Positions 58,374 to 64,000 of a stretch of 64,000 nucleotides of DNA are shown in pieces (the first letter of the stretch is position 1; every line of letters begins with the position of its first letter). Under the pieces are notes generated by a model, which made no database searches, was not told where the DNA came from, and saw only the letters and a program-made list of their open reading frames with translations. The DNA lies in contig NZ_PIGG01000031.1 in the NCBI RefSeq assembly GCF_002924445.1, positions 248,001-312,000 of the forward strand. Direction: 5' to 3'. A program made the position numbers and the translations under genes. Source of the DNA: Minwuia thermotolerans (lineage in GTDB: Bacteria > Pseudomonadota > Alphaproteobacteria > Minwuiales > Minwuiaceae).

Positions 58374-60331
58374 TCAGGATGCCGTCCGGGGCAGTACGTG
58401 AAGGTCGAGCGGTTCGCGACGGCCGCGCACGGTCTGCTCCGGCAGGGCCTCGAAGCCATCGAGCAGGTCCGTTCGGCCTGCCGCGCGCGCCGCGGCGGCC
58501 ACGGTTTCGCTGATCACGACTGTCGCCGCCAGGTCCGCGCCAAGCGCCTGCAGGCGGCTGGCCACATTCACGGTGTCGCCGGTTGCGGTGAGCTCGAATC
58601 GGCGCTGCCCGCCGATCGGGCCGACGACCACCGGCCCATGATGCACGCCGATGCCGAAGCCCCAGCGCCAGTCGGCCGGCGTGTCCGTCCCGCCCGACCA
58701 GGCCTCGAGACGGCCGGCCATTTGGCGTGCGCAGGCGAGCGCACGCACCGGGTCGTCCGGCGCCGATGCGGCCATGCCGAAGACGGCCATGGCCCCGTCG
58801 CCCAGATAGCTGTCGATGGCGCCGGCATGGGCCTCCACCGAAGCTTCGACGGCAGCGTAGAATCCTTCCAGCAGAGCCGCCGACCGTTCCGGTCCGAGCG
58901 CCTCGCTGAGCGTCGTGAAGCCGCGGATGTCCACGAAAAGGATCGTGGCCGGACGGCGGCCCCGGCCAAAACCCGGCTCATCCCGACCCAGCGCCTCGGC
59001 ATGTCCACGAAAAGGATCGTGGCCGGACGGCGGCCCCGGCCAAAACCCGGCTCATCCCGACCCAGCGCCTCGGCAAAGCCGGTGGGCACATATCGCGACA
59101 GCCGGCGCCTGGCGTGATCCGTGCTGATGATGCGCGGCAAGGCGGCTGCTGCTGCGGCTGCCAGCATCGTGGCGGTCGGCAGGGCCGCATCGATCCACCA
59201 TCCGCCCCGCACGAAGACCAGCTGCAGTCCGGCCAGCCACATGACAAGCAGGGCGCCGCACCCGGCCGCAGCCATACCGGGCCGCGCCCGACCGGCGAAC
59301 AGCGCAAAGGCGACGCCGCCGGTCACCAGGGCGGCAAGGCTCGCCATACGCGTCAGCGCATCGTGTCGAAGCGTGCGGCCAGAAATCAGGTTGTCCGCCG
59401 CCGATGCCAGCACTTCGACACCCGGAACGCCGGGTCCGTAGGGCGTCGCGAACCGGTCGCCCAGGCCGGTCGCCACCACGCCGACGAACGCGGCCCGCCC
59501 CTCCACCGCCCCGCCCGGAACCCTGCCCGCCAGCAGATCGTCAAGCGACCAGGACGGCAGGCTGCCGGCGGGACCGGGAAAATCGATCGGCAGGCGCAAG
59601 GCGCCATCCAGTGAAAAGGATACGTCGCCGAGACTCAGTCCATCCCGTGCACTGACAGCAATGCCGGAGCCTGGCGTGCGATGGCGCTGGGCCACGACCA
59701 CCGGCAAGGCGGGATACAGCTGGCCCTAGTGCGGGATCGCCGCGTGCAGAAAACGCAGCCGGTTGTCGGCGTCCACAATCACCTCGGCATGTCCCATCTC
59801 AGCGGCTCGAGCGAGCGCGGGAAAGGGCGGGACCACGCCGCCCCGTCCGCCGCCGGCGCCGATACCCTGCCGGATGTCGACCGCAGCCTCCCGAACCGCG
59901 GGCGGCGCGCGCTCCCCGCCCCCGTCAAAGACGAACGCGAAGGGGACCACCACGTCGTCATCGGCACCGACACGTCGGACAAGCTCCATGTCGCCTTCAC
60001 CCTGGGGATCGGCCAGCAGCAGGTCGAGGGCGATCACGCGCGCGCCGGCGTCACGCAATGCCGTCACGGCATCGGCCAGGACGCGGCGCGGCAACGGCCA
60101 TCCACCCGCGCTGGCGATGCTGCTGTCGTCGATCAGGACAAGCAGCACTTCCGGCCCTGCTGTCGCGGCTCCCCGCGCCTGGAACCGCCAGTCGATGGTG
60201 CGGCCCTCCAGCGCCCGAAGCATTGGCGCATCGTAGGCCAACAGGTAGATCAGCGCGCCGGCAGCGATGGTCGCGAACGGCGGCAGCCAACGCGAACGCC
60301 CGGCGCCGCTGTTGCCGACCGCGTCACTCAA
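58374..60331 (-). pseudogene. CHASE2-adenylate cyclase broken by an amber codon and a 74-bp tandem duplication
   Basis: Reading from TTG 60331, the protein has an N-terminal helix, a CHASE2 sensory domain, two to three membrane helices and a class III cyclase domain (MDIRGFTTLSEALG, GDGAMAVFG, ATGDTVNVASRLQ) to the stop at 58374. Two lesions break it. In CHASE2 a TAG (59726-59728) stops the frame; the same frame continues intact after it (GQLYPALPVVVAQ). In the cyclase start, a perfect 74-bp direct repeat (58927-59000 and 59001-59074) shifts the frame. Removing one copy restores FVDIRGFTTL. Without these the protein would be about 630 residues. The FecR-like gene overlaps its start by eight bases, the usual pair. 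Confidence 0.88.
58927..59074. repeat. Perfect 74-bp tandem duplication
   Basis: Two identical, adjacent 74-base copies (58927-59000 and 59001-59074) begin with ATGTCCACGAAAAGG and end CAGCGCCTCGGC. Because 74 is not a multiple of three, the cyclase frame is shifted. Perfect identity means the event is recent. Confidence 0.95.
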
Positions 60332-60971
60332 TCCGGGTCCGGGCGCGCAACGCCTCGACACGGGCCGGGGGCCAGCGCTTGGCGCGTCCGGGCGGCTCGC
60401 CAAGCGGGATGTCGCTGCCCTGCCCCGCCTGCAGGCCGACCGTCTCGTCATGACCCGGCGCGCTGACCGACACGCGCCCTTCCAGAACGAAGACGCCGGT
60501 CGTCTGCGGATCGGTGGAAACGATCAGCCCCGTCGACCGGACCGAAGCCGTCGCGGTACGGGCACGCACGGAGACATCCCGGCCACCGTCGCTGTCAGTC
60601 AGCAGAACCCGAACCGCGCCATAGATGAGGTCGAACAAGCCCGCCGAACCGGGCGCGAAGCGTTCCACTTCGACGCGAGTTTCCGGGCCCACCGTCATTG
60701 CCGAGCCGTCATCGAAGGCGATGCGCACTTTCGCGCGTATTCCGGTGATCAGCGCATCATCGCGGAAAACCGGCATACCGTGGCGAAGTTCCCGGGCCTC
60801 GGCGGGCCGCTGCGCCAGCACCTCGCCCACCTGCGCGTCGACATGGCCGACCGGCGAGGGTTCCGCCAGGCCCGGTCCGGCCAGCGTCGCCGCCAGCAAC
60901 AGGGCCGCGGCCGCAGCCAGCAACGGCCGCACGCGGTCGTGTGGAAATCGCGCTCGTAATCCGCATCGCAT
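60324..60971 (-). CDS. FecR domain protein, partner of the CHASE2 cyclase
   Basis: This 215-residue exported protein has a hydrophobic N-terminus (VRPLLAAAAALLLAATLAGPG) and a FecR domain with VGHVDAQVGEVLAQRPAEA and RVEVERFAPGSAGLFDLIYG. A second conserved region is ASVRSTGLIVSTDPQTT. FecR/CHASE2-cyclase pairs occur widely in proteobacteria and usually sense envelope signals. The ATG at 60971 has no strong ribosome site. It ends inside the cyclase start. With its partner broken it may no longer signal. Confidence 0.85.
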   Translation of the reverse strand: MRCGLRARFPHDRVRPLLAAAAALLLAATLAGPGLAEPSPVGHVDAQVGEVLAQRPAEARELRHGMPVFRDDALITGIRAKVRIAFDDGSAMTVGPETRVEVERFAPGSAGLFDLIYGAVRVLLTDSDGGRDVSVRARTATASVRSTGLIVSTDPQTTGVFVLEGRVSVSAPGHDETVGLQAGQGSDIPLGEPPGRAKRWPPARVEALRARTRIE

Positions 60972-61036: not shown

Positions 61037-62599
61037 TCAGACCCAGCGGATGAACAGCCAGACCGTGCCGGCTTCGGCGCCCGGCCGCATCTCGATCAGG
61101 ACCTTCCATGTCCGGCGCAGGGTGAAGACATAGCTGAACAGCTCGCTGACGGAGCGTCCCTGACTGACCTCGCGAAAGCGCCCGTGAAACGCGTCGGTGA
61201 ACGTGCAGGGCGCAACTTCGCGGAAGAAGCTCCGCCCGATCACCCTTTCGGGCCGCATTTCGGAGAAGCCGGATTCGGTGTCGTTGTATTTCAGCACGCG
61301 CCCGCTCTCGTCGAGCAGGACCGCGCCCACCGGCAACTGGTCCAGTTGCGCGTCGTCCATGTGAAGGGCTTCCGCCGGCAGATTGACCCCGTCGATGGTA
61401 AAGAACGCCTTCAGACCCTCTACCGAAGGCGCCGGACGCCGGCCCTCGGGCGCCTGGACCCTCCCCGCCGGCAGAACCAGAAACACCGTCGTGCCGATAC
61501 CGGGCTGACTGTTGACGTAGATATTGCCGCCATGGACCTCGATCAGGGCGCGCGTGATGGGCAGACCGAGCCCCGCGCCCTGGGTCTGACCGTCATAGGC
61601 ATGGTCGATCCGGCCGAACGGCGCCAGCGCCGTGGGCAGATCGTGGGCGGCGATGCCCCTGCCGGTATCGGTGACGAAAAAGGCGATCCGGCCATCGTCC
61701 AGCAGTTCCGCGCCCGCCAGGATCCGACCGCCCGGCTTCATGTACTTGCGCGCGTTCGCGATCAGGTTGACCAGGGCCTGCCGCAACATCCGACGGTCCG
61801 CGAAAACGGTGATGTCGGACGGACAGCGCCCGCGATCGACGGATTCTCCACCCGCCTCCGACCTTTCCGAAGTCAGGCGGATCGCCTCATCGATCAGGTC
61901 GCCGACCGGGCAGTCCTCCTCGACCATTTCCGTCGACCCGCTCTCGATGCGGGCGAGGTCCAGGATGTCGTTGACGACGGCGAGCAGGTGCCGGCCGGCG
62001 AACCGGATATCGTCGACATAGCTCTTGTACTTTTCGTTGCCGAGCGGACCGAACAGTTCCGAGCCGAGCATCTCCGAGAAGCCGATTACGGCGTTGAGCG
62101 GCGTGCGCAGTTCGTGACTCATGTTGGCCATGAAGCTCGACTTGGCGGTGTTCGCGACCTCGGCCCTGTCGCGGGCCGTGGCGAGTTCCAGTTCCAGCCG
62201 CCGGCGGTCCGTCAGATCCAGCGTCGTGCCGATCAGCCGAACGACGCGCCCGCCATGGCGGAGCGGCGTGAGTACGGTGCGGGCAAAGAAGAATCCGCTC
62301 GGCAGCACGATCTCCTCATCGTACCGCTCGACATCCCCGCCCTCGATGCAGCGTCGGTAGTTGCGGGCGACCGCCTCCGCCTGCTGCGGCGAGAGTACCT
62401 CTTCCAGCCGCCGGCCGTTCAGTTCGGCCGCATCGATGCCGAAGGCGTTCTCGTAGAAGGCGTTGACGAACTCGATCTCGTAGCCGTTGTCGCGCACCCC
62501 GATCACGAATACCGGAATGCCGATCGTATTGAGGAGGCTGGAGAGAAAGCCGACCGGAGTGGTTGCGAGTCCCCCCTCGTCCATTGTCTCGAAACGCAC
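61037..62599 (-). CDS. Histidine kinase with N-terminal PAS and C-terminal photoactive-yellow-protein-like domain
   Basis: This 520-residue protein has a PAS domain (about residues 20-130), a HisKA/HATPase kinase (phospho-His162 in MANMSHELRTPLNAV, the N box near 278-282, G boxes DTGRGIA and GAGLGLPI), and a C-terminal PAS of the photoactive yellow protein (PYP) type (residues 413-520). That domain keeps three chromophore residues of PYP: Tyr438 and Glu442 (LKYNDTE) and Cys465 (EVAPCTF). The spacings, 4 and 23, equal Tyr42, Glu46 and Cys69 of PYP. Position 446 is Ser (Thr50 in PYP) and 448 is Met (Arg52). The start is GTG 62599 with GGGAG six bases upstream. No response regulator is adjacent. 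Confidence 0.88.
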   Translation of the reverse strand: MRFETMDEGGLATTPVGFLSSLLNTIGIPVFVIGVRDNGYEIEFVNAFYENAFGIDAAELNGRRLEEVLSPQQAEAVARNYRRCIEGGDVERYDEEIVLPSGFFFARTVLTPLRHGGRVVRLIGTTLDLTDRRRLELELATARDRAEVANTAKSSFMANMSHELRTPLNAVIGFSEMLGSELFGPLGNEKYKSYVDDIRFAGRHLLAVVNDILDLARIESGSTEMVEEDCPVGDLIDEAIRLTSERSEAGGESVDRGRCPSDITVFADRRMLRQALVNLIANARKYMKPGGRILAGAELLDDGRIAFFVTDTGRGIAAHDLPTALAPFGRIDHAYDGQTQGAGLGLPITRALIEVHGGNIYVNSQPGIGTTVFLVLPAGRVQAPEGRRPAPSVEGLKAFFTIDGVNLPAEALHMDDAQLDQLPVGAVLLDESGRVLKYNDTESGFSEMRPERVIGRSFFREVAPCTFTDAFHGRFREVSQGRSVSELFSYVFTLRRTWKVLIEMRPGAEAGTVWLFIRWV

Positions 62600-62849: not shown

Positions 62850-64000
62850 ATGACGGGACTGGGGACATGGCGGGAGAATCGGCGAAGCGCTGGCGGCGGT
62901 GCACGCCGCGCGCTGTCGGGCGTCACCCGGCGCCTGCTCCGGGCCCGCGACGGCGGCATGGCCGCTCTGGTGGCGGTCGCGCTGCTGCCCATGACCGCCG
63001 CCGTCGGGGTTGCCGTCGATTCCAGTCTGGCCATGATCACCCAGTCCCGCCTTGCGCGCGCCCTCGACGCGGCCGCGCTGGCGGCAGGGCGTCTGCCGCG
63101 GGGGACCGCCGTCGAGTCCGAGGCACGGCGCTGGTTCGACGCCAATTTTCCGCCCGGTTTCATGGGCGCGACGCTCACCGGGTTCGGCGTGACGACCGAT
63201 GCCCGCGGTGACTTCGTCACGGCACAGGCCAGCCTGGCACTGCCGACTGTCTTCCTTGGCGTAATCGACATCGACAGCATCGACCTGAACCGGCGCACGG
63301 TCGTGGAGCGGATCAACGGCGGCGCAGAGGTCGCGCTGATCATGGACAACACCGGCTCCATGCGCTCGGGCGGCAAGATCGACGCCATGAAGGCGGCGGC
63401 CCGGGGGCTGGTGCAGGATCTCTACGGGGAGAACGAGAGCCTGGACGACCTGTGGGTGTCCGTCGTCCCCTATACGGCGACCGTCAATGTGGGCGCCCAC
63501 CGGCAGGATTGGTTGCGGCTCAACGACCCGGCTCTGTCGGGAGAAAGTCCTTTCCATCCGGGTGCCTGGAAGGGATGCGTCATGGCGCGCGGCGCCGGCG
63601 ACGATCAGACCGACACGCCGCCGTCTGCCGCGCCGTTCGAGAGCTTCCTCTACCCCAGGGCCGACGACAACGACTGGCCGGAGATCGACGAGCGCAACGA
63701 TGCGCAGAACAACGGCCGCGGTCCCAACCTGGGCTGCGGGCCGGCGATCACTTCCCTGACCAACCACCGCGACACGGTTCTGGCCGCCATCGACGAGATG
63801 CTGCCCTGGCACCGCGGCGGCACCACCGGCAATCTGGGCCTCGCATGGGGCTGGCGCACGATCTCGCCCCGCTGGCGCGGCCTGTGGGGTGGCCCGACGC
63901 CGGAGACCATGCCCCTGGCCCGGGGCACGCCGCTCATGGAGAAGGTGGCGATCCTGCTCACCGACGGCCAGAATCAGTTCTATGACTGGCGCGACCACGA
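62850..64000 (+). CDS. TadG-like pilus assembly protein with von Willebrand A domain (partial, C-terminus off the right edge)
   Basis: The frame opens at ATG 62850 (MTGLGTWRENRRSAGGG) and is still open at 64000, after about 383 residues. After a basic N-terminus comes one membrane helix of TadE/TadG type (GGMAALVAVALLPMTAAVGV, then AVDSS), followed by LALPTVFLGVIDIDSIDLNR. The von Willebrand A domain begins VALIMDNTGSMRSGGKIDAM, where Asp166-Asn-Thr-Gly-Ser170 form the metal-ion site; a later strand is AILLTDGQN. TadG proteins belong to tight-adherence (Flp) pilus systems. Other tad genes would be expected to the right of the window. Confidence 0.85.
   Translation, partial: MTGLGTWRENRRSAGGGARRALSGVTRRLLRARDGGMAALVAVALLPMTAAVGVAVDSSLAMITQSRLARALDAAALAAGRLPRGTAVESEARRWFDANFPPGFMGATLTGFGVTTDARGDFVTAQASLALPTVFLGVIDIDSIDLNRRTVVERINGGAEVALIMDNTGSMRSGGKIDAMKAAARGLVQDLYGENESLDDLWVSVVPYTATVNVGAHRQDWLRLNDPALSGESPFHPGAWKGCVMARGAGDDQTDTPPSAAPFESFLYPRADDNDWPEIDERNDAQNNGRGPNLGCGPAITSLTNHRDTVLAAIDEMLPWHRGGTTGNLGLAWGWRTISPRWRGLWGGPTPETMPLARGTPLMEKVAILLTDGQNQFYDWRDH

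Follow-up and report, generated by a model that had tools for sequence, protein, structure and literature searches.

The 64,000-nucleotide stretch of Minwuia thermotolerans DNA analysed here (the window) carries, on its minus strand, a histidine kinase gene whose product ends in a domain resembling photoactive yellow protein (PYP), with genes for a FecR-domain protein and a CHASE2/class III nucleotide cyclase downstream (Table 1). An earlier, sequence-only reading of this DNA gave the coordinates of the kinase gene correctly, to which the minus strand can now be added, and its placement of PYP at the C-terminus of the kinase core, with a PAS domain in front, agrees with the order of matches to Pfam PAS_4, HisKA and HATPase_c, followed by photo_yellow.

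Table 1. Genes, domains and key codons at the kinase-PYP locus, in window positions.
Feature	Position	Strand	Evidence or detail
Histidine kinase with C-terminal PYP domain (PAS-HisKA-HATPase-PYP)	61037..62599	-	ORF 62599..61037, GTG start, 520 aa
N-terminal PAS domain, residues 31-134	62198..62509	-	Pfam PAS_4, E=2.1e-23 for whole protein
HisKA dimerisation/phospho-acceptor domain, residues 152-221, His162 in MSHELRTPLN	61937..62146	-	Pfam HisKA E=6e-20
HATPase_c domain, residues 268-378; N, G1 and G2 boxes intact	61466..61798	-	Pfam HATPase_c E=1.1e-22, invariant columns
Conserved ATPase-to-PYP linker, residues 383-402, with PAPSVEGLKAFF	61394..61453	-	Motif P-x(1,4)-GL[KR]xFF
PYP domain including N-terminal cap, residues about 398-520	61040..61408	-	TIGR02373, PDB matches, AlphaFold model Z 19.8
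Tyr438 codon, equivalent to Tyr42	61286..61288	-	Alignment
Glu442 codon, equivalent to Glu46	61274..61276	-	Alignment
Cys465 codon, equivalent to Cys69 (chromophore thioester)	61205..61207	-	Alignment
FecR-domain protein, signal peptide-like start	60324..60971	-	Pfam FecR E=9.9e-11; about 65 bp downstream of kinase
CHASE2/class III nucleotide cyclase gene, broken	58374..60451	-	In-frame stop near 59726 and frame-shifting 74-bp tandem repeat

The kinase is an orphan, soluble-looking alphaproteobacterial PAS-HisKA-HATPase protein, and no adjoining response regulator gene was found among the neighbour genes identified. Its His162 is invariant across the 32 kinases of the alignment; a search with the full kinase as query returned relatives without PYP, as the kinase core dominates, and these were used for alignment only. 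The best NCBIfam kinase matches of the core are PdhS, at 191 bits (cut-off 2000), and DivJ, at 179 bits (cut-off 1000), neither of which reaches its family cut-off, so this is a resemblance of the core and not membership of the PdhS/DivJ type that partners DivK; a link of the kinase to DivK would be only a lead. Divergent from the kinase, a gene for a TadG/TadE-like Flp pilus protein with a weak VWA match occupies 62850-63998 on the plus strand and runs off the window edge. On the downstream side, FecR is possibly an operon partner of the kinase, and a kinase-FecR-cyclase operon is plausible. In the sister genome (L102) FecR and then the CHASE2 cyclase likewise lie downstream of the kinase on the same strand, and the cyclase frame there is open, at 675 aa. 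The damage to the window's cyclase gene, in which the 74-bp tandem duplication spans 58920-59075, is either real decay or an assembly artefact.

The resemblance of the C-terminal domain to PYP is far beyond chance. Residues 413-519 match the NCBIfam PYP model TIGR02373 (photo_yellow) with E=1.6e-29 and 102.5 bits, whereas the generic PAS model (sensory_box) matches the same stretch with E=0.006 only; in a phmmer search against PDB sequences, PYPs alone had meaningful E values (9e-23 and weaker), the next unrelated match lying at E~1. It could be argued that the domain is an ordinary PAS resembling PYP by chance, since Pfam labels residues 416-494 merely as PAS-family and the TIGR02373 score (102-106 bits) falls short of the curated cut-off of 143. 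However, a fusion linked to a PYP-type p-coumaroyl-CoA ligase (pCL), that of G353, is also under this cut-off (122 bits), and TIGR02373 has been reported to capture only 20% of PYP homologs (PMC9664959). An AlphaFold model of residues 392-520 (pLDDT 90), compared by VIA-align, superposes on PYP residues 5-125 with Z 19.8 (rmsd 1.8, 120 residues) and on the PYP of Ppr (1mzu) with Z 18.5, against at most 13.3 for other PAS domains; the sequence alignment for structure prediction leaves out four rows from plasmid records. Fold and sequence comparison together refute the ordinary-PAS reading, which, given also a complete pocket and the pCL-linked fusions of relatives, has next to no chance of being right. 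As the model aligns to PYP from residue 5 onward, the PYP unit includes the N-terminal cap, which puts its beginning near residue 398 (window position ~61408); the span of residues 413-520 first proposed for the domain therefore holds as a PYP match, but its start lies about 15 residues too late.

The chromophore site is as the sequence-only reading described it, with Tyr438, Glu442 and Cys465 aligned to Tyr42, Glu46 and Cys69 at exact PYP spacing in a VAPCT context, and with Ser and Met at positions 50 and 52. The equivalents of Phe62, Phe63, Val66, Ala67, Pro68, Thr70, Phe79, Tyr94, Phe96 and Trp119 are also kept, while that of Ile31 is Val. The two characterised PYPs with Ser50 both absorb near 434 nm (PMC12826048), so Ser50 in the window PYP fits a blue shift, and the suggestion that these replacements would alter absorption is a reasonable one.

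Although a C-terminal PYP on a kinase was initially presented as unlike known hybrids, this implied novelty is outdated, as the arrangement was reported in 2025 (Dohmen et al., PMC12826048). An ortholog (L010), 96% identical in protein sequence, is present in a sister species of the same genus (G003). The fusion protein was absent from the other genomes of the order that were searched, and a DNA search of seven genomes of the genus found the region in the window genome and its sister only, not in the other five; gain in one branch and loss in the others are not separable from this distribution. Horizontal acquisition was considered, and the GC content of the fusion gene, 65%, lies close to the 67% of the window. 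Among 385 genomes of the class there was one further fusion, in G353, and a search of that bacterium's family added G823, G824 and G825 as carriers, together with G822, where a contig edge leaves only a C-terminal fragment. All five belong to one genus, and its complete fusions that were scanned have two PAS domains, as in the published architecture. When 398 genomes of the phylum were searched for full-length relatives at E<=1e-80, only the window protein itself was found. In these C-terminal fusions a PAS-HisKA-HATPase kinase is followed by a PYP that ends the protein; their PYPs form one clade with 99/99 support, the sampled N-terminal kinase and phytochrome PYP fusions group apart from them in the tree, and among the fetched loci the linker motif GLKxFF occurs in kinase-PYP fusions only. 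From the single clade and the common linker, it is most likely that the kinase-PYP fusion arose once and then spread by descent or transfer.

The relatives also point to what the fusion does. A PYP-type pCL lies in the cluster of the fusion gene in all five genomes of G353's genus that carry the fusion: directly upstream of the fusion in G353, G823 and G824, overlapping it or a few tens of bases away; as part of a pyp-pCL pair divergent from the fusion in G825; and in G822 (L161, G822:C209, 2797-7450) in a compact one-strand cluster whose order is fusion end, single-domain PYP, MCP-like signalling domain, pCL and a TAL-like lyase that scores under the hutH cut-off. The relatives' pCL proteins score 294-316 bits each against TIGR02372, whose curated cut-off is 334.7. 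Because of this linkage, blue-light reception is the most likely role of the fusion family.

The window genus differs in this respect. The first reading had seen neither a tyrosine ammonia-lyase nor a pCL gene in the window, which is borne out, and the search for tal and pcl elsewhere in the genome that it proposed gave the same result: the best TIGR02372 match in the window genome reaches 46.5 bits and covers a C-terminal piece only, that of the sister being alike, and PF00221 (aromatic ammonia-lyase) has no match in either genome (G000 and G003). The window genome is 100% complete in 82 contigs and the sister genome is closed, and a control search, with matches in 5 of 14 known genomes, shows that the method works. 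In each of the five relatives there are one or two PF00221 lyases. Absence of a lyase is by itself weak evidence, because G353, whose only such enzyme is of the histidine-ammonia-lyase type, nevertheless retains pCL beside the fusion; it is in the absence of pCL that the contrast with the relatives is sharper. Of the acyl-CoA ligase matches in the window genome, the best eight were assigned by an NCBIfam scan to acetate, benzoate and fatty-acid types, with no coumarate or ferulate ligase among these eight; the benzoate-CoA ligase (L003, 805 bits) might be a promiscuous substitute for pCL. The unusual point of the locus is thus a bacterium without the usual enzymes for making and attaching the pigment, though relatives carry one near the same gene.

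While the pigment enzymes are missing, the domain appears to be kept. The window protein and its ortholog in the sister species, the one pair available, give dN/dS values of 0.10 (PYP core), 0.15 (kinase core), 0.11 (PAS domain) and 0.13 (whole protein). From the window lineage to the relatives, the distance is 0.64-0.73 for PYP and 0.73-0.81 for the ATPase domain; G353 and G825 differ in the same proportion (0.32 and 0.38). PYP has diverged no further than the ATPase domain has, so it has not been released from constraint; these comparisons show purifying selection on it and indicate that its function is kept in the window lineage. Elsewhere, the N-terminal PYPs of G633 and G510 (L112 and L113, proteins of about 900 aa) have lost Glu46 and Cys69, which are Ala and Ser there, unlike the window PYP, and are likely not light sensing; Cys69 loss has also been reported for PYPs of methylobacteria (PMC9664959).

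Taken together, the window protein carries a bona fide PYP on a kinase, belongs to a fusion family of most likely single origin and is probably a blue-light-controlled histidine kinase, a view we hold with moderate confidence. The main rival is that it descends from a photoreceptor whose pigment enzymes were lost from, or never acquired by, the genus, and that its present role is independent of light: apo-PYP would serve as an interaction module, or the domain would sense a small aromatic acid or thiol chemistry at Cys465. Such a change of role, which we regard as possible if unlikely, would explain why both fusion-bearing genomes of the genus are without PYP-type pCL and aromatic lyase while five of five relatives have a clustered pCL, and drift to non-light roles has been proposed for other PYP lineages (PMC9664959). 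Yet Tyr42, Glu46, Cys69, Phe62, Phe63, Val66, Ala67, Pro68, Thr70 and Phe96 are all unchanged, only Ile31 being Val, PYP has evolved in step with the ATPase domain, and genes for the chromophore often lie away from pyp and encode enzymes that may have broad substrate ranges (PMC12826048). Because the domain is constrained, whereas Cys69 tends to disappear from PYPs that give up light sensing, light sensing with an outside pigment is favoured. A search of the literature on apo-PYP loading yielded nothing useful. The best reading of the window protein is a blue-light kinase that would acquire its pigment from external p-coumarate with the help of a general CoA ligase. A more specific form of this reading, a coincidence detector for blue light and plant-derived aromatics, is rather doubtful: the kinase would signal light only once p-coumarate from plant matter, or another aromatic acid, had entered the cell and been activated by such a ligase. 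If true, it would mean a photoreceptor kinase with none of the known PYP enzymes to produce or activate its pigment.

A further alternative concerns the output, with kinase, FecR and CHASE2 cyclase forming one operon through which light would act mainly on the nucleotide cyclase and so on cAMP signalling. Gene order and strand are the same in both species and only about 65 bp separate kinase from FecR, but the window genome has a broken cyclase, FecR and CHASE2 families usually point to periplasmic signals, and in G353's family neither these genes nor the cyclase were seen next to the fusion; we consider such an output improbable.

For the blue-light kinase, a mechanism can be proposed. p-Coumarate, activated as its CoA thioester, would be attached to Cys465; blue light would isomerise the chromophore, Glu442 would pass a proton to it, and the 25-residue N-terminal PYP cap would then come loose. 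The GLKxFF linker ties this cap covalently to the ATP-binding domain at its last strand, and release of the cap would alter the mobility of that domain, its reach to His162 and hence autophosphorylation. The front PAS domain would provide a second, separate input via a long helix into the phospho-acceptor domain. A full-length model has a long helix at 130-179 leading from PAS into HisKA and a short one at 393-400 that connects PYP with the ATPase domain; its quality is moderate at best (pTM 0.51), and poor over 442-457, and domain contacts are not readable from it. The way in which PYP hands its signal on to a partner has long been an open question, and a light-unfolding cap tied directly to the ATP-binding domain of a kinase would bring it into a testable one-protein system. 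The pCL-linked relatives make a light role plausible, and the window genus lets one ask whether PYP works without dedicated pigment genes.

The closest known systems are the kinase-PYPs of Dohmen et al. (PMC12826048), in which PYP likewise lies at the extreme C-terminus after HisKA/HATPase, with PAS in front and Cys69 kept, and for which the authors left the mechanism of signal relay open. To judge from architecture, these are probably proteins of the G353 type, the text of the paper giving neither accessions nor organisms. They have two PAS domains and the window protein one, which is also unlike them in its FecR and cyclase genes downstream and in a genome without PYP-type pCL or aromatic lyase. 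MCP-PYP fusions (Methylomicrobium, Nitrincola) also have a C-terminal PYP on a signalling protein, but the output is a chemoreceptor and not a kinase; the Nitrincola domain photocycles and absorbs at 447 nm (PMC12826048). In our own set, two proteins (L096 and L097, from G027 and G158) have an MCP-like region, recognised by eye, and a C-terminal PYP-like domain with Tyr42 and Cys69 kept, Gln at position 46 and Ile for Pro68; their genomes are only 1.3-1.6 Mb, and no aromatic lyase was found in them. Ppr of Rhodospirillum centenum (PYP-phytochrome-HisKA; PDB 1mzu) resembles the window protein in linking PYP to a histidine kinase, in Ser50 and in the fold of its PYP, but its PYP is N-terminal, with a phytochrome module in between. 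The PYP of Halorhodospira halophila shares the fold with its N-terminal cap, Tyr42, Glu46 and Cys69, and about 37% identity over 107 columns; it is, however, a stand-alone protein with its own pigment genes (the pyp-pCL-TAL operon), and has Thr50 and Arg52 where the window PYP has Ser and Met.
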